Made by a program: the position numbers and the translations under genes. Below are positions 1,545-15,529 of a stretch of 30,781 bases of DNA, piece after piece; within the stretch, counting starts at the first letter, position 1, and each line of letters begins with the position of its first letter. The DNA comes from a virus: positions 1 through 30,781 of IMG/VR virus record IMGVR_UViG_3300032282_001319; one strand, 5' to 3'. Below the pieces are notes generated by a model. It had not been told where the DNA came from. It did not search any database and saw only the letters and a program-made list of their open reading frames with translations.

Positions 1545-1627
1545 TCTGCTCTGTCCTCCGACAAGGCGGTTGCCTCTCCATCACGTGGAGTTCAAAGGGA
1601 GTGTTTAAACGCACTCCCTTTTTTTTA
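1545..1627 (+). ncRNA. Candidate small non-coding RNA
   Basis: The sequence between the promoter-like elements and a strong intrinsic terminator has no credible start codon plus ribosome site, so the unit would give an RNA of about 80 nt. It contains a 5-bp hairpin (CTCCA-TCACG-TGGAG, about 1577-1591) and then the terminator hairpin. I do not recognise a family. The start point is inferred from the -10 position. It could equally be the leader of a longer transcript that ends here. Confidence 0.35.
1594..1627 (+). terminator. Rho-independent terminator with GTTTAAAC loop
   Basis: A perfect 10-bp stem, AAAGGGAGTG (1594-1603) with CACTCCCTTT (1612-1621), has an 8-nt loop TTTAAACG and runs into a tract of eight Ts. 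One GTTTAAAC copy (1603-1610) forms the loop plus its closing base. The terminator at 21762-21790 has the same loop. Confidence 0.85.
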
Positions 1628-1681
1628 AGCCGGTTAAAACTTGCCGCCGGGCGCTTTTTCACAACGTTTAAACATCCTAAG

Positions 1682-1694
1682 TTACGCTGCGTAA
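1682..1694. promoter_or_regulatory. 13-bp perfect palindrome, possible operator
   Basis: TTACGC-T-GCGTAA lies in the non-coding stretch, 9 bp after the GTTTAAAC copy at 1666-1673 and just before an A/T-rich run (AAAAAATATTTATAC) that could hold a -10 box. The symmetry suits a dimeric regulator. No direct evidence of binding. Confidence 0.3.
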
Positions 1695-1810
1695 AAAATA
1701 TTTATACGATTAAGCCAAACCCCTATTGCGCTCATCGCTAAAAAAGAATTAACATGATGACTCGCCTCTTGTTTGTCGATGCAAAACGGCACGGACAAGG
1801 GGCTTAATTG

Positions 1811-1981
1811 TCGGTAGTGTGGTTAGTGCGTTAGATACCGAAAAGGGAAGGCGAAGATAGAGTCCCTCGCACGAAAAGTCTGTCGGGTCGTACCGAAGCC
1901 ATTGGGCGTAAGTGCGTGAAGGCAGACCAGTTTAAGGCTAGGTCTGCCCTCTCCAAAGGGCAGAAGATACGATGAGTATCT
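1811..1981 (+). ncRNA. Structured leader with mutually exclusive hairpins upstream of the HNH gene
   Basis: The 586-bp stretch 1407-1992 has no credible gene. Its right end is dense in self-complementary arms: TCGGTA (1811-1816) with TACCGA (1836-1841); GGCAGACC (1921-1928) with GGTCTGCC (1941-1948); TCTGCCCT (1943-1950) with AGGGCAGA (1957-1964); AGATAC (1965-1970) with GTATCT (1976-1981). The second and third pairings compete for TCTGCC, as in attenuators and riboswitches. No U tract follows, so translation control or a free RNA is more likely than termination. I do not recognise an RNA family. Strand is assumed from the downstream gene. Confidence 0.4.
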
Positions 1982-1998
1982 AAATACTATGAGTGACT

Positions 1999-2235
1999 AT
2001 GGCAACTAAAGACAAAAGAGATTGGAAAAAAGAATATCAAACCCAACTCAAAAGGGGTGACGATAAGGGGCAACTAGAACGTCAGAAAGCAAGACGTTTA
2101 TACGATAAGAAAGGCATAGAAAGAACAGGCAAAAACATAGACCACATTACACCTATAAAAACTGGTGGCAAGACCACTACAGGCAACCTCAGATTGCGCT
2201 CACCAAGAGCCAACAAATCTGACAATAAAAAATAA
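1999..2235 (+). CDS. HNH endonuclease, small phage type
   Basis: A 78-residue basic protein. Residues from about 45 give the HNH core: NIDHITPIKTGGKTTTGNL, then RLRSPRANKSDNKK. The D-H pair, the P-I-x-x-G-G turn, the N-L and the final N-K positions match the metal-binding and catalytic layout of HNH nucleases. The N-terminal part is mostly Lys/Arg helix. Such small HNH proteins nick or cut DNA and in phages act in packaging or as homing enzymes; which applies here is unknown. A GTG at 1993 would add two residues. Neither start has a good ribosome site, which is notable given the structured leader just upstream. It sits 18 bp before the primase-helicase gene. Confidence 0.8.
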   Translation: MATKDKRDWKKEYQTQLKRGDDKGQLERQKARRLYDKKGIERTGKNIDHITPIKTGGKTTTGNLRLRSPRANKSDNKK

Positions 2236-2253
2236 TTTTCGTAGGAGGCTTAA

Positions 2254-3954
2254 TTGAATGCAGTCGCTGAACTGATTGATACGCTATACATTGATGACAC
2301 GCAACGTGTCGTTTGTCCCATGTGTTCGCCCGAACGCAAGAAATTCAAACTCAAAGAACTCAAGATAGACCGCAAGCCCGAAGGCTTGGTGTACCTCTGC
2401 CATCATTGCGGAGTGTCGGGTCTCGTCCCAAACAAAAAAACCCATCAACCGACATACCGCAAGGAGCAGAATGTGATTCCCTTAAAGCAACCCCCCGCCA
2501 TCACCAAACTACAACCACAACACTACAGTTTTCTGAAGACACGTGGTATTTCGGAGAGGGTTGCAGATGAGATGAAATTGTTTCCTGCCCAGAAATACTT
2601 TGCTCGTTTAAACAAGGAGACCGAAGCGATTGGCTTCCCGTATTTTCGAGGTGGAGTCTATGTTTCTGCCAAGTACCGCTCGATTGAATCGAAGGACTTT
2701 ACGCAAGATGCGGGTGGGGCGCATGACTTCTTTGGCATTGACCACATCGACCAAACACTACCAGTAGTGATTGTTGAGGGTGAGATAGATGCCTTGACTT
2801 TGATGGAGTGCGGTTTAAAGAACGTCCTGTCAGTACCAAGTGGTGCTCCCATGAAGGTCACCGATGGCAAGATTGACGCAAGCGAAGACAAGCGATTTAC
2901 TTTTGTTTGGAACGCCTTTGACATGTTGAAGAACGTGCCATACGTGACGATTGCAACCGACACAGATTCAGCGGGACAGGCGTTAGCGGAAGAACTGGCA
3001 AGGCGTATTGGCAAAGACAAATGTCGTATCGCCAAGTTTGATTACAAGGACTTGAACGAAGTTTTCTTGGCTGAAGGTGCAGACTTAGTTAAACAAATTA
3101 TTGACTCAGCCGAGCCGTATCCAGTAGCGGGCTTGTCGTCCGCCAGCAAGTTTGAGGAGCGTTTAAACGACCTATGGGGTAAGGGCACAGGGAAAGGGAC
3201 GAGCACAGGTTACTCGAACGTTGACCAAATTTACACAGTAGCCCAAGGACAACTGACCATCGTCACAGGTTATCCGTCTTGCGGTAAGTCGAACTTTGTA
3301 GACCAACTGATGGTCAACCTTGGCAAAGCCCATGATTGGAAGTTTGCTATCTGTTCATTTGAGAACCAACCTGAGATACACATCTCACGCCTGATGGAGA
3401 TTTACAAAGAGAAAAGATTCTTTGAAGGCAACAACCGCATGACCCAAGACGAAAAGGATGAGGCGTTTAAATGGGTAGAGAACCATTTTCTGTTTCTAGA
3501 TTCCGAAGGCGCAGAACCCTCATCAATTGAATCAATCCTTGAACGTGCAAGAGTAGCAGTAGCAAGAACAGGCATACGTGGTTTAGTCGTTGACCCATAC
3601 AACTACATTGAAAACAAATCGGGCATGGCAGAGCACGAATTCATCTCATCGATGTTGACACGCATGCAAGCGTTTGCAAAGGCGTATGGGGTGCATATAT
3701 GGTTTGTGGCTCACCCAAGCAAAATAACCCGCTCAAACATGGATTTACCACGTCCTGATGGCATGGCTATCTCAGGTTCGATGGCGTGGTGGGCGAAGGC
3801 TGATTGCGGACTGACCATTCACCGAACCAAATCGAATGACGTTGAACTGGCGGTTTGGAAGTGTCGCTATCGTTGGATTGGAACTCAGGGCGAAACAACC
3901 CTTGGGTACAACAAAACAACTGGTACGTACTTTGAAAACACCGATGCGTTTTGA
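2254..3954 (+). CDS. DNA primase-helicase, T7 gp4-like
   Basis: A 566-residue fusion protein. The N-terminal zinc finger uses C21, C24, C49 and C52 (CPMC and CHHC). A TOPRIM domain follows, with VEGEIDA near 174-180 and ATDTDSAG near 234-241 as its acidic residues. The C-terminal DnaB/RecA-type helicase domain has Walker A GYPSCGKS near 339-346, Walker B GLVVDPYNY, and WFVAHPSK as the H4-like strand. It would unwind DNA at the fork and lay primers, as T7 gene 4 protein does, at about the same length. Translation starts at TTG, 8 nt after a clear AGGAGG. It contains GTTTAAAC copies at 2606 and 3161, both read as Leu-Asn. No DNA polymerase is present in this window. Confidence 0.93.
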   Translation: MNAVAELIDTLYIDDTQRVVCPMCSPERKKFKLKELKIDRKPEGLVYLCHHCGVSGLVPNKKTHQPTYRKEQNVIPLKQPPAITKLQPQHYSFLKTRGISERVADEMKLFPAQKYFARLNKETEAIGFPYFRGGVYVSAKYRSIESKDFTQDAGGAHDFFGIDHIDQTLPVVIVEGEIDALTLMECGLKNVLSVPSGAPMKVTDGKIDASEDKRFTFVWNAFDMLKNVPYVTIATDTDSAGQALAEELARRIGKDKCRIAKFDYKDLNEVFLAEGADLVKQIIDSAEPYPVAGLSSASKFEERLNDLWGKGTGKGTSTGYSNVDQIYTVAQGQLTIVTGYPSCGKSNFVDQLMVNLGKAHDWKFAICSFENQPEIHISRLMEIYKEKRFFEGNNRMTQDEKDEAFKWVENHFLFLDSEGAEPSSIESILERARVAVARTGIRGLVVDPYNYIENKSGMAEHEFISSMLTRMQAFAKAYGVHIWFVAHPSKITRSNMDLPRPDGMAISGSMAWWAKADCGLTIHRTKSNDVELAVWKCRYRWIGTQGETTLGYNKTTGTYFENTDAF

Positions 3955-4043
3955 CCAACTGCTGTGTTTTGCTTCTCTGTTGTATCAACCAGTCGGGCGT
4001 TTAAACGCAGAGCCATGACTTCCTGCTTTTAAAAATTTAGGGC

Positions 4044-4080
4044 AAAAAAAATCCCCCCAAGGCGCAAACCAAGGGGGGAG
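4044..4080 (-). terminator. Terminator of the leftward early operon
   Basis: Read leftward: CCCCCC stem, loop with an inner GG/CC pair, GGGGGG stem (stem arms 4052-4058 and 4073-4079), then eight Ts (A tract 4044-4051 on the plus strand). It sits 10 bp beyond the last leftward gene, so it ends the 10216-to-4090 operon. The rightward primase-helicase gene ends at 3954. The 3955-4040 gap holds a 12-bp palindrome, GCGTTTAAACGC (3997-4008). Confidence 0.85.
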
Positions 4081-4089
4081 GAACTAGTG

Positions 4090-4227
4090 TCAATTCTCAT
4101 TTCGTTCTTTAATCTCACGCTCAATAATCTCTTGGAATAACTTCCATCGTGATGACTTGTGTTTGCCTCCATGCTTGGGGGCTTTGTTTAACGCCTTGAC
4201 AACTGGGTTGATAGGTTTAACTTTCAT
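4090..4227 (-). CDS. Small basic protein, unknown
   Basis: A 45-residue protein beginning MKVKPINPVVKALNKAPKHG. The middle (GGKHKSSRWK) is strongly basic, and a charged helix at the C-terminus ends EIKERNEN. The ATG overlaps the upstream stop as ATGA, a translational-coupling junction used repeatedly in this operon, which supports it as a real gene despite its size. It is the last gene before the operon terminator. No family recognised. The net positive charge would allow nucleic-acid binding, but that is only an inference. Confidence 0.6.
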   Translation of the reverse strand: MKVKPINPVVKALNKAPKHGGKHKSSRWKLFQEIIEREIKERNEN

Positions 4228-4418
4228 AATGCATCCTTAGTTTGATGTTTCCATTCGTGCATCGGGATGGTGTGTGCGATGTCAATCGCATCGAGCGGAC
4301 ATCGAGCGTATATCTCAACGCTCAACTTTTTGTCAGCAATGGTTTGCTCAACCACGTGCATGACCCGCTCTTGCATGTCTGACTGTCGAGTGTTCGAGTG
4401 CTTGGTGTAGGCAATCAT
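4224..4418 (-). CDS. Hypothetical protein, early operon
   Basis: A 64-residue soluble protein (MIAYTKHSNTRQSDMQERV at the N-terminus). It predicts as helix-strand-helix with no membrane segment, and I recognise no motif. The start overlaps the upstream stop as ATGA, and its own stop overlaps the next start the same way, so it sits in a coupled run of four small genes (5111 to 4090). Real as a gene by context; function unknown. Confidence 0.6.
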   Translation of the reverse strand: MIAYTKHSNTRQSDMQERVMHVVEQTIADKKLSVEIYARCPLDAIDIAHTIPMHEWKHQTKDAL

Positions 4419-4747
4419 TTGTTAGCCTCGAACTCCCACTCGTCCATACAGAAGTCAAGGTCACGCAAGTCGGGGGTATCGGTGCGCTCTTCAACTGTGC
4501 CATCGCTCCACGTCACCAGTACGCACCAACGCCTGATTGTTTTGCGTGGTGTGTTTATCAACTTGTGGAACAACTCGTTGTCACGTTCAACGTAGCGCAA
4601 CGCACTCTTGTCTTCATCGTCAAGGTCATCAACGCATGCTTGCATGTCAGCGATTGCCTCTGCCCATGTATCGAACCCATTGCCATCTCGATACTCACGA
4701 ATCGTGTCACGTGCTGATTCGTCTGTGTGGTAGTAAAGTGTGCTCAT
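4415..4747 (-). CDS. Hypothetical acidic protein, early operon
   Basis: A 110-residue acidic protein beginning MSTLYYHTDESARDTIREYR. The centre holds a charged helix (ACVDDLDDEDKSALRYVERD). A short beta region near residues 70-85 (RRWCVLVTWSDGTVEERTD) resembles a small domain repeated in phage early proteins, but I cannot name it. GGAGGG lies 11 nt upstream, with a GTTTAAAC copy (4748-4755) filling the space between ribosome site and ATG and supplying the stop codon of the upstream gene. The motif thus sits directly at a translation junction. Confidence 0.65.
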   Translation of the reverse strand: MSTLYYHTDESARDTIREYRDGNGFDTWAEAIADMQACVDDLDDEDKSALRYVERDNELFHKLINTPRKTIRRWCVLVTWSDGTVEERTDTPDLRDLDFCMDEWEFEANK

Positions 4748-4749
4748 GT

Positions 4750-4896
4750 TTAAACGCCCTCCGAATATTTAATGCTGATGTGGTGAAGTAACGCATCGAG
4801 GTCAGTCGAGATTGAACTCTCGATGACCACGCCCGATACGCTATAGACAATGAGCATCCATCCGTTGTCTGCTCTGAGCAATTCAATCTTGTTCAT
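4750..4896 (-). CDS. Small hypothetical protein, early operon
   Basis: A 48-residue protein starting MNKIELLRADNGWMLIVYS and ending KYSEGV. The ATG overlaps the upstream stop as ATGA. The stop TAA lies inside GTTTAAAC (4748-4755), and the preceding GGAGGG codons double as the ribosome site of the next gene. It looks like one compact alpha/beta domain with no cysteines and no membrane segment. Coupling to both neighbours supports it as a gene. Function unknown. Confidence 0.6.
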   Translation of the reverse strand: MNKIELLRADNGWMLIVYSVSGVVIESSISTDLDALLHHISIKYSEGV

Positions 4897-5658: not shown

Positions 5659-5874
5659 TTAATGAACGATTTCACTTGATGGGTCTGACTCATCGTAGAT
5701 ACGAGAGACAGTCATCACGATGTATGCAAGGAGTGATGCGGGTTCGATACCCCCCATCACCCCCGCCCTTGCAAGCAACATAGTCAATGCGGGAATGACA
5801 ATCTCCATCTCTTTGCCATTCAACGTATCGCCCATGTTGCTCACCAGTTTGTCAAACTCCTCAACAGTCTTCAT
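5659..5874 (-). CDS. Small hypothetical protein downstream of the VWA gene
   Basis: A 71-residue protein, MKTVEEFDKLVSNMGDTLNG at the start, followed by a hydrophobic helix run (MEIVIPALTMLLARAGVMGG, then ASLLAYIVMTVSRIYDES). It could be a helical-bundle protein or weakly membrane-associated; the segments are short and broken by charged residues, so I favour soluble. The start overlaps the VWA gene's stop as ATGA, pointing to coupled production with the AAA+/VWA cassette. Function unknown. Confidence 0.6.
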   Translation of the reverse strand: MKTVEEFDKLVSNMGDTLNGKEMEIVIPALTMLLARAGVMGGIEPASLLAYIVMTVSRIYDESDPSSEIVH

Positions 5875-6674
5875 TGCAACTCCTTGAGGATTTTGTTAAA
5901 CGATGCTGATGCCAAGCCATTGATGTCTGCAACGTTCTCGCTTGAGCGAAAGCATTCCTTAACACTCGTGTGCCCGATACCGATTGCAATAATCTTGACG
6001 TTGAGTCTGTCGGCAAGACTTTGCAGATGAGCCATGTGCTTTTGGTTGTAGCCGTCAGCATCGGTGAGCAAGAACAAAATCTTGCGTTGCTCTTGACGAG
6101 TAGCCAAGTCTTCAATCGTGATACTCAGCGATGAGTAATCAGGCGTTGCAGACCTAGCCCATTGATGAATCGAACCCAACTTAGCAGATGCTTTCTGAAT
6201 CGATTCTTTCCACGTCTTGAACGGCACGAACGTAGGTTGCTCGTACTTGATGTGGATGTTGCCAACTGCACCAGTAGCATCACGATGGACAGTCTCAGCA
6301 CCGCCATAAAACCCTGTGACGTTGAACGATACGTTTGCCTTGTCCAGTATGCGAGACAACTGGATTGCCAACGCCTCCGCAGTACCGATGCGATTGTCAG
6401 AATTCATAGAACCCGAACAGTCGATGAGTATCGATACCGCTGATGCCTCTGCCTCAACGTGAACACGTTTGGCAAACACCGCAGTACTGCCACAGGCAAA
6501 GCGTGTAAACGCCTTGCGGTCTAAACGTCCTGACTCCTCGTGTGTGTTCCAACCGACTAAGTCGAGTGAACGCAAGAGGCGCAAGATGTTGGCACGAGTA
6601 GCACCAAGGTTGCTTGCCTGATGGTTGTACTGGAATGAATAGTTACGCTCTGCGTCTGCTTTGATTACGTACAT
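5871..6674 (-). CDS. CobT-like VWA-domain protein (C-terminal half)
   Basis: A 267-residue protein. Residues 20-75 (LGATRANILRLLRSLDLVGW, then EESGRLDRKAFTRFA) match the segment that precedes the VWA domain in CobT-like proteins. The VWA domain starts at about 79 with ILIDCSGSM, giving the D-x-S-x-S metal site (MIDAS). LFLLTDADGYN near 200 is the usual second acidic strand, and IIAIGIG near 230 closes the fold. Such proteins partner MoxR/CobS-type AAA+ ATPases, and the matching ATPase lies two genes upstream. In the same frame, only TAA-ATC separates its ATG from the previous gene, so the two read as one CobT-like protein split by a single stop. GGGGGT before the ATG may allow re-initiation. 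Confidence 0.8.
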   Translation of the reverse strand: MYVIKADAERNYSFQYNHQASNLGATRANILRLLRSLDLVGWNTHEESGRLDRKAFTRFACGSTAVFAKRVHVEAEASAVSILIDCSGSMNSDNRIGTAEALAIQLSRILDKANVSFNVTGFYGGAETVHRDATGAVGNIHIKYEQPTFVPFKTWKESIQKASAKLGSIHQWARSATPDYSSLSITIEDLATRQEQRKILFLLTDADGYNQKHMAHLQSLADRLNVKIIAIGIGHTSVKECFRSSENVADINGLASASFNKILKELQ

Positions 6675-6677
6675 GAT

Positions 6678-7760
6678 TTACCCCCAATGAAATGTTGCGT
6701 ATACAGGCTTGCCTACCGATGGTCTGCTCTTGCCCTCGTCTGCTTTCGATGAGTGATTGCTCAACTCGTCTTTGATGAAGTCGCTTGGTTCTACCTCACG
6801 CCCTCCATCGAATGAGGTATCGCTCTTGCCCTCACCCTTACCATCACCCTCGCCATCTTGCGGTTGACCATCGCCTTGCTCATCGCTTGGCTGACCATCT
6901 TGGCTATCGCTTGGCTTGTCACCCTTGCCGTTCTCAGAACCCCCCTGAGACTCGTCAGAATCGTCTGTAGAGGGCGATTGACCATCAGCCTCACCCTCAC
7001 CCTCACCCGCATCGTTCGCATCGTCTGAGGGGTTGCCGTCTGACTGCTCACCATCACCGCCTTGAGGCTTGTCAGGTTGACCCTGACCTTTCTCTTTTTC
7101 CTTTTGCTTTTCTTCTTGCTCTTGCTCCTTGATACGAGCGAACAATTCGATGGCAATCTTGGTGATGGTTGCGGTATCACGTGCAGACTGTGCACGTTTC
7201 AATGCCCACTTGATGTGCTTTGCCCAAGGTGACTTGCTGACGATGGATGCAACGCCAATCGAGTAGCCGTTTAAACGTCTTCCCTCAACTGCAAGAACGA
7301 AAGGGATGTTGCGTTTGTCGAGCGGGTCAACGTACCCATCCTTGGCGAGTATCGAATTGATGAGGTTCTCAAACAAGACACGAGCATTGGGTGCACGTTC
7401 TGATTCGATGACCTTACGTTCGATGCGTGGGTCTTCTAATCCATTGATGAGTGAACTCACGAATGAACCATGCTTTGCACGTGCTCTGTCCCAAGGTGCG
7501 TTGTCGGTATACCAAGCATGACCCAACTCGTGCAAGGCGTAGCCGATGAGGTTGTTGAACGTGGCTTGCGGGATGTTTGATTTCTCATCGATAGATGGAA
7601 ACAAAATCTTTGCATTGACACGTCTGTTGGTGCGGTCAAAAATAATTCCCGCAGTCTTGCCTGTCCAAAGAATCTCAAGCGAACCGAACTCGTCACCGCT
7701 TGCATTGAACACACGCTCTGAAGTAGTGGCAACGCCACGCTTAACATCGATGCCTAACAT
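6678..7760 (-). CDS. CobT-like metallopeptidase with acidic tail (N-terminal half)
   Basis: A 360-residue protein. Residues 77-81 are HELGH, a zincin motif. About 30 residues later, NGLEDPRIERK (about 106-116) gives the conserved E-D-x-R block of CobT/MoxR-associated proteins and a candidate third ligand. From about 205 to 340 the chain is low-complexity Gly/Ser/Asp/Glu/Gln, like the acidic linker of CobT. It ends YATFHWG before a TAA, in frame with the VWA gene 3 bp later. The fused length would be about 627 residues, normal for a full CobT-like protein. AGGAGG precedes the ATG by 6 nt. The substrate is unknown; a role in cobalamin synthesis is unlikely in a phage. Confidence 0.8.
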   Translation of the reverse strand: MLGIDVKRGVATTSERVFNASGDEFGSLEILWTGKTAGIIFDRTNRRVNAKILFPSIDEKSNIPQATFNNLIGYALHELGHAWYTDNAPWDRARAKHGSFVSSLINGLEDPRIERKVIESERAPNARVLFENLINSILAKDGYVDPLDKRNIPFVLAVEGRRLNGYSIGVASIVSKSPWAKHIKWALKRAQSARDTATITKIAIELFARIKEQEQEEKQKEKEKGQGQPDKPQGGDGEQSDGNPSDDANDAGEGEGEADGQSPSTDDSDESQGGSENGKGDKPSDSQDGQPSDEQGDGQPQDGEGDGKGEGKSDTSFDGGREVEPSDFIKDELSNHSSKADEGKSRPSVGKPVYATFHWG

Positions 7761-7769
7761 AGCACCTCC

Positions 7770-9248
7770 TTATTGTTTGGTTAAGAAAGATTTCAACGAC
7801 TGAACATCAATCGTTGCAGAGAACACACCACGCAACTCAGCCTCGCAGTCAGCGGGAAACTTGTTGACGATGGCGTTGTCGAAAGCGATTGCAACTGGCA
7901 CACCCTTTTGAATCGCACGTGCCCAAGCGAACAACTGACGCAACGATGGGGGCTGAGTCAAGATACCCGCTCTTGCTTTCTCACGTGCGGTATTGGCGAA
8001 CTTGACAAGCGTCACGCTTGCATCGTGCGACAGACCAGTACGCTTGCAGATGAGCGATACCTCTTCATCGTGTGGCAAGTAGTCGAACCGCAGAGTGAAC
8101 GAGAACCTATCCAAGAACGCAGTATTTTGGTCACGCACACCCGCAAAGTTACCCGATGTATCACCATGACCATTCGAGTTATCAGCACCGAAGAACACGA
8201 CATGCGATGCGACAGGAATGCGAACGCCTGTCTCAGCGATGACGATTGAACGATGAGGCGAACGCTCACACAATGCATGCAGTACTGCGAGGTTCTGTGC
8301 ACGAGCGAAACCAATCTCGTCAAGCAGAATGATTGCGCCTGTGTGTTGGATTGCCTGAGTGATGACACCCTCTTTCCAAACCACGTTGCCGTTCTGAATC
8401 GTGTTGCCCCCGATGAACTCAGCACGTTCGATTGCCTCGTCAAAATTCACACGAAACAATCTGCGTCCAAGGCGTGATGCAACTTGTGCAACGAACTCGC
8501 TCTTGCCTGTACCACGCTCACCCGCAAGCCACACGTTGTCAGGCAGAGGGTCATCGAGTGCGATGAGTGACTGATGCAAGTGTTGAGGGTTGAAGATGTA
8601 GTCATCGACACGAGCGGGTGCGTCAGCATCAGCCCACACCTCAATCTCAAGAGCAGAGAAGTCAACCGCTTGACCATCGTGCTCGTACTTGCACACGTCA
8701 CCGAAGATTTCACGAGCAGTCTTACGTTCGCACTTGGGCAATGCGTTGGCGATGGTGACAACCTCTTCACGAGGCGTGACCTTGCGGAAAGACTCAAACA
8801 AGTCTGAGACCTGAGTGCGAATGACCGACTCGACTTTGCCGTAGTCCACGCCTTGAATCGATGTGACTGCGTTGTTTAAACGAGTCTGCAACTCGTTGAA
8901 CTTCTGCTCGTTCGCAGTCTGTTGCTTGAGGTTCGCATCGAGTAACTCGTTCGCAACTTCACGAACACGAGTCACGCCCTCGACTGCCTTGGCAATGTCG
9001 GTTTGCGTCTGCAAGATTTTTGACCGCACGTCATCGTCCACACGTGCATTGGTTGCGAGTGACGATGCCTGTGATGGCACAGTAGTCTCGACTTCAGACA
9101 GAGTGACAACGCCTGTGTCGATGAGGTCACGAACTGCCCTGAGTGCCTCAACCTTGGTGATGTGAAATTTCTGCCCCCTGTTGGTGAGAACTGTGTTCAG
9201 CACAGGCAGAGAAAGTTTAGACAGGGCGAGAGAGATAGTGTTACTCAT
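7770..9248 (-). CDS. CobS/MoxR-like AAA+ ATPase
   Basis: A 492-residue protein. Residues 1-160 are helical, with a coiled-coil-like stretch near 75-130. The AAA+ core starts at about 235: Walker A GERGTGKS (243-250), Walker B IILLDE (306-311), a sensor-1-like FFGADNSNG, and an arginine-finger-like FLDRFSF. The fold is the AAA_5/MoxR type seen in CobS, which forms rings and acts with a CobT-like VWA partner; the matching CobT-like pair follows directly. GGAGG lies 8 nt before the ATG. The long N-terminal helical extension is not part of CobS and may bind the substrate. I infer a chaperone or remodelling function acting on a host or phage target. Confidence 0.9.
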   Translation of the reverse strand: MSNTISLALSKLSLPVLNTVLTNRGQKFHITKVEALRAVRDLIDTGVVTLSEVETTVPSQASSLATNARVDDDVRSKILQTQTDIAKAVEGVTRVREVANELLDANLKQQTANEQKFNELQTRLNNAVTSIQGVDYGKVESVIRTQVSDLFESFRKVTPREEVVTIANALPKCERKTAREIFGDVCKYEHDGQAVDFSALEIEVWADADAPARVDDYIFNPQHLHQSLIALDDPLPDNVWLAGERGTGKSEFVAQVASRLGRRLFRVNFDEAIERAEFIGGNTIQNGNVVWKEGVITQAIQHTGAIILLDEIGFARAQNLAVLHALCERSPHRSIVIAETGVRIPVASHVVFFGADNSNGHGDTSGNFAGVRDQNTAFLDRFSFTLRFDYLPHDEEVSLICKRTGLSHDASVTLVKFANTAREKARAGILTQPPSLRQLFAWARAIQKGVPVAIAFDNAIVNKFPADCEAELRGVFSATIDVQSLKSFLTKQ

Positions 9249-11185: not shown

Positions 11186-11809
11186 ATGCAAAAGAGCAAG
11201 ACACACAACGCAAGCACTCAGAGCGAGAACGATGCAAGCACAGAGCAAGCGGGGGCTTATGTCGAAGACATGCGGTCAGCCGTTGCTCAAGTAGAGATAA
11301 AGACAAAGAAGAATGGACTACCAAGAGGCGTACACAGAGAAGAGACTACAGACAGTCAAGGCAGAGACAAGAGACTGACTGCAAAGATGCAAGCATTCGC
11401 ATCGAATATCGTTCAAGGTCTCTCACCCAACGATGCGTATCGAAGAGCATATGACTGCTCGAATATGGGTGAGGCATCAATCGTCAGCGAGGCGAACCGA
11501 CTTTTGAAAGACCCACGAATCAGTTTATTACTGGAGTCCTTTTGGAAGACCCTCAAAGAAAACGTCATCGCTGACCATCAAGCCACACGCAGACACATCA
11601 TGTCGGAACTGTTCAACCATGCTGAGAGAGCGAACGAACGAACGAGTGACAAACTGAAAGCGCTCGAACTGATGGGCAGAGCGATAGGCATGTTCACCGA
11701 CAAAGTAGAGAGCAAGACAGAAGAGGTCAACGTGGACTCACTCAAGAAAGAACTGGAGTCATCACTTGAACTGCTCAAGTCAAGCAAGAGCAAACCACTA
11801 CTGAATTGA
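11186..11809 (+). CDS. Terminase small subunit
   Basis: A 207-residue protein. The N-terminal 65 residues are polar and probably disordered. Residues 65-115 match the helix-turn-helix region of small terminases: RLTAKMQAFASNIVQGLSPN, then DAYRRAYDCSN, and SEANRLLKDPRIS. The C-terminal half is helical with an acidic, Ser/Lys-rich tail, as expected for oligomer formation. Small terminase binds the packaging site on phage DNA and hands it to the large subunit. AAGGGGA precedes the ATG. Unusually, the large subunit is not adjacent but about 2.2 kb downstream, with small genes and a structured RNA between. Confidence 0.85.
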   Translation: MQKSKTHNASTQSENDASTEQAGAYVEDMRSAVAQVEIKTKKNGLPRGVHREETTDSQGRDKRLTAKMQAFASNIVQGLSPNDAYRRAYDCSNMGEASIVSEANRLLKDPRISLLLESFWKTLKENVIADHQATRRHIMSELFNHAERANERTSDKLKALELMGRAIGMFTDKVESKTEEVNVDSLKKELESSLELLKSSKSKPLLN

Positions 11810-13125: not shown

Positions 13126-13334
13126 AAGAAAAGGATTGGATTATTGCCAGACTACTCTACGCCCTGTATGCAGAAGGTAGGAACGCTGACAACACTGATG
13201 CTATGAGAGCCTCCAATTGGTTTATAAATAACCACGGAACATCGCAGTTGCTAGATGCCTACTCCCAGATTTCAAAAGAAGGGCGTAAGATTTACGAGCC
13301 GTATTGGGTAGACAAAGACAAGTGGTCTAAATAG
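13122..13334 (+). CDS. Small hypothetical protein
   Basis: A 70-residue helical protein, MKEKDWIIARLLYALYAEGR at the start, ending WVDKDKWSK. The charged, aromatic helices suggest a small soluble bundle. It has a strong ribosome site (AAGGAG) and an ATGA overlap with the previous gene. It is the last of the tiny-gene run; the structured RNA element begins 16 bp after its stop. Function unknown. Confidence 0.6.
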   Translation: MKEKDWIIARLLYALYAEGRNADNTDAMRASNWFINNHGTSQLLDAYSQISKEGRKIYEPYWVDKDKWSK

Positions 13335-13349
13335 GTTTAAAATCGTTCT

Positions 13350-13486
13350 GCCATTGGGGGTGCACTAGCGAAGCACAGCCCGACAAGGGAAGGTAACTGG
13401 GTGCAAATCCCAGACAATGGCTCCATCACGCATGGGGATTGAGCGTCTTAATGCTGGCTCTTGTCGCCCAGCCTTGCAATCTCCAT
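13350..13486 (+). ncRNA. Structured RNA element with complementary hairpin loops
   Basis: Stem GCCATTG (13350-13356) with CAATGGC (13415-13421) closes a domain of three hairpins: GTGC/GCAC (13360-13363, 13373-13376), CCC/GGG (13379-13381, 13387-13389), and CTGGG/CCCAG (13397-13401, 13409-13413) with a 7-nt loop TGCAAAT. A second domain follows: ATGGGGATTG (13432-13441) with CAATCTCCAT (13477-13486, one G-U pair) enclosing GCTGG/CCAGC (13453-13457, 13468-13472). CGACAAG (13381-13387) in one hairpin is the exact reverse complement of CTTGTCG (13460-13466) in the loop of another, so a kissing interaction is possible. It looks tRNA-like (76 nt ending CCA) but fails tRNA geometry. Class unknown; strand assumed from the flanking genes. 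Confidence 0.55.
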
Positions 13487-13514
13487 TCGTGTTGGTATAC
13501 ATGTTTGCAATGTC

Positions 13515-13543
13515 ATGTATAAAAAACATTAATTTTTATACAT
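13515..13543. promoter_or_regulatory. A/T-rich inverted repeat
   Basis: A perfect 11-bp inverted repeat, ATGTATAAAAA (13515-13525) and TTTTTATACAT (13533-13543), with a 7-nt spacer. It lies between the structured RNA and the regulator gene pair. It could be an operator or a weak bidirectional terminator; the lack of G/C in the stem argues against a terminator. Confidence 0.45.
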
Positions 13544-13584
13544 AACAACTCCTTGAACGTTTAAACAATGTTCGTGTACAATAC

Positions 13585-13804: not shown

Positions 13805-14027
13805 GAAACAGAAGTTGGTCTACGACTTTATCCAAGCCTTTATCAAGATGAAGGGCTTCTCCCCTTCCTACTCCGAGATTGCCCAAGGTCTGGGCATGCG
13901 CTCCAAATCAAACATCCACCGACATATCCACTCCCTAAAAGAGCGGGGGCTACTCCAGATTAAGCCCCATATGATTCGCTCCATGAAAGTGGTAGATAAC
14001 TCAGTCAAACACGTAGTCAATCTGTGA
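13797..14027 (+). CDS. LexA-type winged-helix DNA-binding protein without protease domain
   Basis: A 76-residue protein matching the LexA N-terminal domain: MTEKQKLVYDFIQAFIKMKG, then FSPSYSEIAQGLGM as the first helices of the reader motif, RSKSNIHRHIHSLKERGLL as the recognition helix, and a wing. The catalytic Ser/Lys autocleavage domain of LexA is absent, so RecA-triggered self-cleavage is not possible. It probably binds DNA as a small repressor. AGGAG lies 7 nt before the ATG. Its stop overlaps the GTG start of the large terminase gene (GTGA), so expression of regulator and terminase is linked. Nearby palindromes are candidate sites. Confidence 0.8.
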   Translation: MTEKQKLVYDFIQAFIKMKGFSPSYSEIAQGLGMRSKSNIHRHIHSLKERGLLQIKPHMIRSMKVVDNSVKHVVNL

Positions 14028-15529
14028 CCCTTCTGACCCAACAGGAAATCACGCAGTATCGAGAACTGTTGGATGTCCTGCCGCCAGACCACCCGAACGT
14101 TACCAAAATCAAGACACTCTTTAACGAGGACAAGAAGGAACGTTGCCGTAACAATTTCATCCCCTTTGTTAAGGAAATGTGGGCGGCATTCATACCGGGA
14201 AAGCACCACAAGGACATGGCAGAAGCCTTTGAGCGGGTAGCCGAAGGCAGTTTAAAGCGCCTCATCATCAATATGCCGCCTCGACACACCAAGTCTGAGT
14301 TCGCTTCTTACCTTCTTCCCGCTTGGTTTCTAGGTAAATTCCCTGAGAAAAAGATTATTGAGACCGCTCACACCGCAGAACTGGCGGTAGGTTTTGGTCG
14401 TAAGGTCAGGAACTTGGTCAATACGCCACCGTATCAGGCTATTTTCCCCACCAAGTTATCCACAGACTCCAAAGCCGCTGGGCGCTGGAACACCAACAAA
14501 GGCGGTGACTACTTCGCTATTGGTGTTGGGGGCGCTGTAACTGGTAAGGGCGCTGACCTTTTAATCATTGACGACCCACATTCCGAGCAAGAAGCCATGC
14601 AGGGAACTGCGGCAGTCTATGACCGAGTGTTTGAATGGTACAACTCTGGTCCTCGCCAGCGCTTGCAACCGGGAGGGGCAATCATTATCGTTATGACACG
14701 TTGGTCAAAGAAAGACCTGACGGGGCAGATTCTTGCGAACGCTGCCAAGAGGGATGGGGATGATTGGGAAGTGATTGAGTTTCCCGCTCTAATGCCTAGC
14801 GGTAAGCCACTCTGGCCCGAATTCTGGAGCGAAAAGGAACTTCATGCCATCAAAGCAGAACTCCCAGTTGGTAAATGGGAAGCCCAATACCAGCAAAACC
14901 CAACCTCCGAAGAGGGAGCCATCATCAAGCGAGATATGTGGAAAATCTGGGAAGAGGATACCCCGCCTCCTATCGAGTACACCATCCAATCTTGGGATAC
15001 TGCTTTCGAGAAAAACAACCGAGCCGACTACTCAGCCTGTACCACATGGGGAATCTTCTACCTCCCAAATGAGAACGGAGAAAGCCGTGCCAATATTATT
15101 TTGCTCAATGCGGTCAAAGAGCGAATGGAATTCCCAGAACTAAAACGCAGGGCGTTTGACCAGTACAAAGAATGGGAACCAGATACCTGTATTGTGGAAA
15201 AACGAGCAGCGGGAGCGCCTTTGATTTATGAATTAAGGCAGATGGGAATTCCAGTAGAAGAGTACACACCAAGCAAAGGAAGTGATAAGATAGCCCGTGT
15301 AAACGCTGTTTCTGACTTGTTTTCATCAGGAATGGTGTGGTGTCCTGACACTCGCTGGGCTGATGAGGTCATGGAGGAGTGCGCCTCTTTTCCTAATGGC
15401 GACCATGACGACTTAGTAGACTCAACCAGTCAGGCTCTGTTAAGATTTCGCAAAGGTGGCTTTCTTCGTTTAAACAGTGACCGTGAAGACGATATTAAGC
15501 CATTTAAACGCAAAGTGGCGTACTACTAA
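14024..15529 (+). CDS. Terminase large subunit
   Basis: A 501-residue protein. ATPase domain: Walker A-like NMPPRHTKSE (about 83-92) and Walker B LLIIDDP (about 179-185). The C-terminal nuclease domain has QSWDTAFEKN as the first acidic strand, TCIVEKRAAG in the middle and NGDHDDLVDS near the end, the metal-binding aspartates of the RNase H-like fold. It powers DNA translocation into the head and cuts the concatemer. The start is GTG, overlapping the LexA-like stop. The gene contains a third TTATCCACA (near 14456) and a GTTTAAAC copy at 15468. Length and motifs are typical. Confidence 0.95.
   Translation: MTLLTQQEITQYRELLDVLPPDHPNVTKIKTLFNEDKKERCRNNFIPFVKEMWAAFIPGKHHKDMAEAFERVAEGSLKRLIINMPPRHTKSEFASYLLPAWFLGKFPEKKIIETAHTAELAVGFGRKVRNLVNTPPYQAIFPTKLSTDSKAAGRWNTNKGGDYFAIGVGGAVTGKGADLLIIDDPHSEQEAMQGTAAVYDRVFEWYNSGPRQRLQPGGAIIIVMTRWSKKDLTGQILANAAKRDGDDWEVIEFPALMPSGKPLWPEFWSEKELHAIKAELPVGKWEAQYQQNPTSEEGAIIKRDMWKIWEEDTPPPIEYTIQSWDTAFEKNNRADYSACTTWGIFYLPNENGESRANIILLNAVKERMEFPELKRRAFDQYKEWEPDTCIVEKRAAGAPLIYELRQMGIPVEEYTPSKGSDKIARVNAVSDLFSSGMVWCPDTRWADEVMEECASFPNGDHDDLVDSTSQALLRFRKGGFLRLNSDREDDIKPFKRKVAYY

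Follow-up and report, generated by a model that had tools for sequence, protein, structure and literature searches.

Positions 13350 to 13549 of the stretch of freshwater phage DNA analysed here, 30,781 nucleotides long and called the window in what follows, are, judged from sequence, a small locus in which two or three structured RNA units follow one another. The first unit, domain 1, is predicted to be a tRNA mimic: it keeps the acceptor, D-like and T-like arms of a tRNA, and its anticodon arm is swapped for a short hairpin with a GAYAA pentaloop. The second, domain 2, is by the same kind of comparison an independent hairpin whose handle is constant and whose cargo is interchangeable. We hold this anatomy with high confidence. 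As to function, our best guess, to which we give somewhat less than an even chance, is a putative trans-acting decoy RNA directed against RNA-targeting defences of the host.

A predicted RNA locus near the terminase genes

The proteins of the window have PHROGs matches that identify the genes TerS, at 11186-11809, and TerL, at 14024-15529. The original prediction placed the RNA in a 281-bp gap between these two genes: it does lie inside the TerS-TerL interval, but its direct neighbours are two small hypothetical genes. The features of the locus, as we read them, are the following.

13315..13343, + strand: promoter-like site P1, AAGACA-17-TAAAAT, with the end of its -10 element 6 nt 5' of the RNA
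13350..13421, + strand: domain 1, predicted A-type GAYAA tRNA-like RNA with a non-decoding hairpin arm (covariation; covariance model)
13350..13357, + strand: 5' strand of the acceptor, GCCATTG(G), partner of 13414-13421
13360..13376, + strand: D-like arm, GTGC-ACTAGCGAA-GCAC (covariation)
13379..13389, + strand: replacement of the anticodon arm, CCC-GACAA-GGG, then the conserved A13390 (stem covaries, loop constant in relatives)
13397..13413, + strand: T-like arm, CTGGG-TGCAAAT-CCCAG (covariation)
13414..13425, + strand: 3' strand of the acceptor, (A)CAATGGC, then TCCA (sequence)
13428..13490, + strand: domain 2, predicted modular hairpin with handle ACGCATGGGGATTG ... CAATCTCCATTCGT, of a family of at least 123 loci
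13442..13476, + strand: variable cargo of domain 2, including an inner hairpin with loop CTTGTCG; the cargo differs between phages
13491..13549, + strand: third unit, closed by GTTGGTATACATG ... TATACATAACAAC, the GTTGG...CAAC closing pattern of post-module units elsewhere
13553..13582, + strand: promoter-like site P2, TTGAAC-18-TACAAT, 5' of the next gene

The 7-bp closing stem announced by the original prediction (13350-13356 with 13415-13421) and its three enclosed hairpins (13360-13376, 13379-13389 and 13397-13413) are all present. What had been missed is that this stem, with the additional pair G13357.A13414 and the TCCA that follows, forms a tRNA-like acceptor arm; among relatives, TCCA is not conserved. 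The 7-bp (or 8-bp) acceptor, the D arm and the T arm come in cloverleaf order, as in a functional tRNA, but instead of a 5-bp anticodon arm with a 7-nt loop and U33, the window has a 3-bp stem and the 5-nt loop GACAA. Since a closed hairpin replaces the anticodon arm, the mimic should not decode, and since the sequence of the acceptor varies freely, it should have no single tRNA synthetase identity. The D loop and T loop also change together: an A at the usual place of G18 accompanies G55, and sequence L160 has a G with U55, a joint change that matches the prediction for a tRNA elbow.

Elsewhere in the window, a match to the Betaproteobacteria-1 RNA of Rfam (RF02932, 63.3 bits) at 1765-1888, on the + strand and 5' of an HNH-like ORF, is a second structured RNA in this phage. 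On the - strand, positions 5871-9248 contain genes for a MoxR-like ATPase and a VWA/CobT-like protein, with PHROGs of the cobaltochelatase/porphyrin type.

Covariation among homologues

As far as comparison of sequences can tell, the RNA is real, and the decisive evidence is covariation among homologues. Folding statistics, with a z-score of -2.06 and 5 of 200 shuffles as good, are modest evidence when taken alone. For the sequence of the window by itself, the cloverleaf has an energy of -26.2 kcal/mol and the lowest-energy alternative is slightly better, at -28.1 kcal/mol; the cloverleaf thus rests on comparative evidence.

In the alignment of group A1, 96.5% of the cells are paired and 11 of the 20 pairs have changed on both sides (for the acceptor stem, 7 of 8); the covariation score is 0.552, against 0.218 +/- 0.027 in shuffled alignments, none of 500 reaching the observed value. 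In the joint alignment of types A and B, pairing extends to 96.0% of the cells, both sides have changed in 16 of 20 pairs, and the score is 0.750 against 0.213, again reached by none of 500 shuffles. Members of a type are kin, hence the shuffles overstate independence, and controls in which the pairing partners are slid are the better guide: they score between 0.049 and 0.154, versus 0.552 to 0.750 for the real pairing. Homologues near related terminases, L006 and L020, and others located elsewhere have compensatory changes in the acceptor and T stems. The check suggested by the original prediction, a search for covarying pairs in homologues, therefore upholds the cloverleaf: its stems change in compensation.

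The covariance model R1 gives 80.4 bits to domain 1 of the window, whose sequence is part of the model; the family scores between 61 and 90 bits, versus at most 33.5 bits for ordinary tRNAs, with one high-scoring copy per genome. The R1 match in L081, at 23.3 bits, falls in the range of ordinary tRNAs and was excluded from the members. ARAGORN calls no tRNA gene in the window, and the Rfam tRNA model RF00005 has no match at the window RNA, even at E<=10; the S-PM2 copy, at 164657-164730, is called tRNA-??? by ARAGORN.

The GAYAA hairpin arm

Our first motif scan fixed the segment CCGACAAGG, and was uninformative on the conservation of its letters. We used instead scans by D and T arms alone, with the hairpin arm left free, which also serve in place of a control scan with permuted motifs. 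With the A-type D and T arms, at least 120 stretches were found. Among the matches listed, each arm is a short hairpin, with no ordinary tRNA in the set; its loop is nearly always GACAA and at times GAUAA, apart from a subgroup of the GACAU type and a single AACAA, and its closing stems include CCC/GGG, GCA/UGC, GCG/CGC, GUG/CAC, GUC/GAC, GCC/GGC and CCU/AGG. After the closing stem come a bulged A and an outer pair that covaries: across 33 sequences, each of the three closing pairs, and the outer pair too, has changed on both sides in 6 to 20 sequences.

Two other tRNA bodies were scanned in the same way. The second yields 115 distinct arms, nearly all of them ordinary anticodon arms; its short arms, in L083, L141, L184 and L394, are all GAYAA, and L417 has another non-standard arm. 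The third has GACAA in 9 of 15 arms. The pentaloop is present also in the variable arm of ordinary tRNA-Leu, and may be simply a stable cap.

Matches to CCCGACAAGGG plus a T arm in bacterial genomes are variable arms of tRNA-Leu wherever ARAGORN named the tRNA, and those in Christensenellaceae are unrelated repeats; neither were kept as members. Repeated intergenic sequences of the form CCCGACAAGGGTTGAACC...GGTTCAA, which are not tRNA-like, were seen in Christensenellaceae and other Clostridia (L229, L231, L238, L244, L245). The scans brought up other unusual bodies: on the - strand of L122, near 3881, a small body of tmRNA-like type, GGGGCTG...CAGCTCC, that bears a GCC-GACAA-GG hairpin; in L165, at 1600-4800, about ten bodies resembling tRNA-Leu, whose large inserts mostly lack an anticodon, lying between small genes like tRNA punctuation; and in Erwinia phage Fifi44 (L253, 865-2032), a 1.1-kb noncoding region that contains a tRNA-Leu-like body whose anticodon arm is replaced by AGC-UGAAAU-GCU, together with a mini tRNA-like body lacking the D arm. 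In the window itself, a further CCGACAAGG at 1558-1566, on the + strand, lies within an inverted repeat TCCCTTTG...CAAAGGGA; this could be a further structured RNA or chance, with about 0.2 occurrences expected by chance.

Domain 2, a candidate modular hairpin

The second domain described by the original prediction, a long stem with an inner hairpin, is found at 13428-13490. Its handle, ACGCATGRGGATTG...CAGTCCYCAGYCGTGTTGG, occurs in at least 120 stretches. The domain-2 reads give at least 107 distinct modules and at least 98 distinct cargoes; overall, there are at least 123 loci and about 51 cargo clusters at 85% similarity. These clusters recur with different downstream neighbours, which indicates that the units are shuffled. 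The inner stem compensates in members outside the scanned class (GGAGA/UCUCC, GAACA/UGUUC, GAGAA/UUCUC). Units with GTTGG...CCAAC as their closing sequences, some of which have a tRNA-like body, alternate with the modules; sixteen phage records have one domain-2 module locus each.

Two ideas about this module were abandoned. Packaging genes are not its usual neighbours, the contexts being varied, and a resemblance to integron attC sites fails on the R-box consensus, which the units, starting with GTTGGT, do not fit.

Distribution of the two families

Relatives of the tRNA-like domain were found in more than 100 viral contigs, and in the cyanophages S-PM2, S-RIM8, S-SZBM1 and S-EIVl. The original prediction recognised no RNA family, and the Rfam search of the window likewise gives nothing meaningful at 13350-13486, the sub-threshold matches to mir families being due to chance; the families of domains 1 and 2 are both absent from Rfam. 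Exact patterns detected no domain-2 module in 369 genomes of Gammaproteobacteria, and no B-type tRNA-like RNA in 292 genomes of Cyanobacteria. In sampled host genomes and with such patterns, both families thus appear so far to be confined to phages. All counts given here are lower bounds from exact-pattern scans, with families sampled around chosen patterns.

The presence of the tRNA-like RNA is sporadic among close relatives, as is typical of accessory genes, and its surroundings depend on the type. In four A-type lineages (L086, L109, L187, L204), the RNA is followed, after a short leader, by a TerS-like gene and then by large terminase and portal genes; these names reflect resemblance to the window proteins, themselves confirmed by PHROGs. 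Other types are found in tail, replication or recombination regions, as read from their ORFs, and cyanophage copies lie within tRNA clusters. The clue of the neighbourhood was thus reasonable: a promoter-proximal site beside packaging genes is real in several lineages.

Some viral contigs with the tRNA-like RNA also carry a cyanobacterial-type tmRNA (L258, 6326-6591), a glutamine-II riboswitch (L302, 2396-2448) or a wcaG RNA (L300, 2048-2148).

The complementary loops and DNA packaging

In the window, CGACAAG at 13381-13387 is, as had been noticed, the exact reverse complement of CTTGTCG at 13460-13466. A functional pairing of the two loops finds no echo in homologues, which keep CGACAAG without its complement: when 12 further sequences were compared, the longest loop match reached 3-5 nt, which is the level of chance. 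Sequence L209 retains the complement, its domain 2 being identical to that of the window, and provides no independent test. The exact complement is probably a coincidence.

A packaging RNA that uses loop-loop contacts, as in phi29, was the idea suggested by the position of the RNA between the small and large terminase genes, and terminase genes are indeed downstream in several A-type loci. Against it, the loop complement is unconserved, and most relatives of the RNA are located elsewhere in their genomes, in other phages. The tRNA-like RNA is present in 3 of the 81 terminase-matched sequences (the window, L006 and L020), and within 1.2 kb upstream of the terminase in 2 of 68 relatives; phages whose large terminase is 89-96% identical mostly lack it, and no copy was found in the five isolated phages searched whose terminases are closest. 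We consider a packaging role highly improbable.

Possible functions

Assuming that the RNA is a decoy, it would begin at its own transcription start, and the RNA or its processed pieces would accumulate during infection. The mimic would then bind a host factor that targets tRNA or RNA, probably an abortive-infection nuclease or toxin, and act as a decoy or an RNA antitoxin, with the GNRA-like loop as a possible contact point; swapping units would let phages match the changing defences of their hosts. The tRNA body resembles a common target of defence systems; no host relative was found in the sampled genomes.

One hint at such a role comes from the abiF RNA (RF03085), which binds AbiF and neutralises it, whether acting in cis or in trans (PMC12373285). 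Its matches adjoin tRNA-like relatives and do not overlap them: in L348, L085, L084, L128 and L175, 4-6 nt separate the abiF RNA from a B-type tRNA-like RNA; in S-SZBM1, where it occupies 31410-31446, the distance is about 60 nt, and it is larger in L267 and L292. In L508, the abiF RNA is the last unit of a module array. A search of the nine abiF-bearing records, several of them short fragments, detected no Abi_2 gene. There are precedents for phage RNA mimics acting against defence, pseudo-ToxI (PMC3475682) and Racr (PMC10651486). Together, the adjacency of abiF, these precedents, the negative scans of sampled host genomes, the sporadic presence and the shuffling favour an accessory role in counter-defence. 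Since the window has no RF03085 match at the gathering score, and no abiF RNA was found in the four A-type genomes searched, this guilt by association is indirect; unrelated RNAs can gather in any phage tRNA cluster, and the four A-type lineages with a short leader between RNA and TerS gene also fit a role in cis.

The serious rival is indeed a cis-acting 5' element, a possible but doubtful reading in which the RNA forms the 5' end of the packaging-operon transcript, and serves to protect it, as a processing site for RNase P and RNase Z, or for translation control of the first gene. Two promoter-like sites were found where 1.2 are expected, weak support for P1 when taken alone, but 7 of 10 A-type loci have a -10-like hexamer 6-7 nt 5' of the acceptor, and no other distance has more than 2. 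Apart from the four lineages with a short leader, members of other types directly precede a Shine-Dalgarno sequence and ATG (L090, L113, L106, L182). What weakens this reading is that a second promoter-like site separates the RNA from the gene in the window and in L166, that tRNA genes intervene in L203 and L208, and that cyanophage B-type copies, in their tRNA clusters, have no -10-like peak 5' of the acceptor; a processing site, moreover, would not need a constant loop. That loop is the attraction of a less likely proposal, in which an RNA-binding protein of the phage or its host attaches here and acts on transcription, for instance as at N/boxB-like antitermination sites: the GACAA pentaloop of the window hairpin is that of the P22 boxB, which adopts a GNRA-like fold with a looped-out C that contacts a peptide (PMC12550061). 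Several A-type lineages do place the RNA at the start of rightward operons. Antitermination has no need of a tRNA elbow and an acceptor stem, yet both are conserved here, and members are found between ordinary tRNA genes.

It is very improbable that these RNAs are degenerate, functionless tRNA genes, or tRNA remnants used as recombination sites. The resemblance to tRNAs is clear, and some B-type members reach 45.8-46.8 bits with the tRNA model of Rfam, but decay would not retain one loop and paired stems across very different bodies. Finally, CCGACAAGG exactly complements positions 1941-1949 of the E. coli 23S rRNA, a match that we confirmed. An antisense role has practically no chance of being correct: stem letters vary freely while pairing is kept (GCA/UGC, GCG/CGC, GUG/CAC), which abolishes the complementarity, so that stem covariation refutes it.

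Returning to the decoy reading, a broader conjecture can be offered tentatively: freshwater and marine phages may hold a modular arsenal of interchangeable RNAs: decoding-dead GAYAA tRNA mimics, hairpins whose cargo can be swapped, and RNA antitoxins that stand alone. Jointly, these would neutralise RNA- and tRNA-targeting immune effectors. If true, this arsenal would be the RNA counterpart of anti-defence gene islands. Should the RNAs be decoys, phages would carry anti-defence RNAs in shuffled sets, which would point to immune effectors, as yet undiscovered, with the tRNA body as their target of recognition. In either case, two widespread RNA families missing from Rfam are now defined, with the possibility of an earlier description in the literature; one of them is a tRNA-like RNA whose decoding arm appears to be exchanged for a constant hairpin. 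Isolated cyanophages, including S-PM2, carry the mimic, which makes laboratory tests feasible.

Relation to known RNAs

The new RNA shares with the canonical phage tRNA (RF00005) its acceptor, D-like and T-like arms, its elbow contacts and, in cyanophages, its location in tRNA clusters; it differs by the short GAYAA-loop hairpin that stands for the anticodon arm, and the window copy is missed by both ARAGORN and Rfam. The P22 boxB has the same GNRA-like GACAA pentaloop, but is a simple hairpin in the nut site, without a tRNA body. Like the RNA of the window, the phi29 pRNA belongs to a phage, is associated with packaging genes by position and has complementary loops; for the new RNA, the complement is unconserved and the element dispensable in close relatives. 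The mascRNA and menRNA are eukaryotic, of different origin and not known to carry a GAYAA loop. As predicted here for the new RNA, these and other tRNA-like RNAs have the shape of a tRNA and do not decode (PMC11693755). With the abiF RNA, the type III RNA antitoxins, pseudo-ToxI and Racr, the likeness would be that of small structured RNAs at the defence interface; their sequence and fold differ from those of the new RNA.
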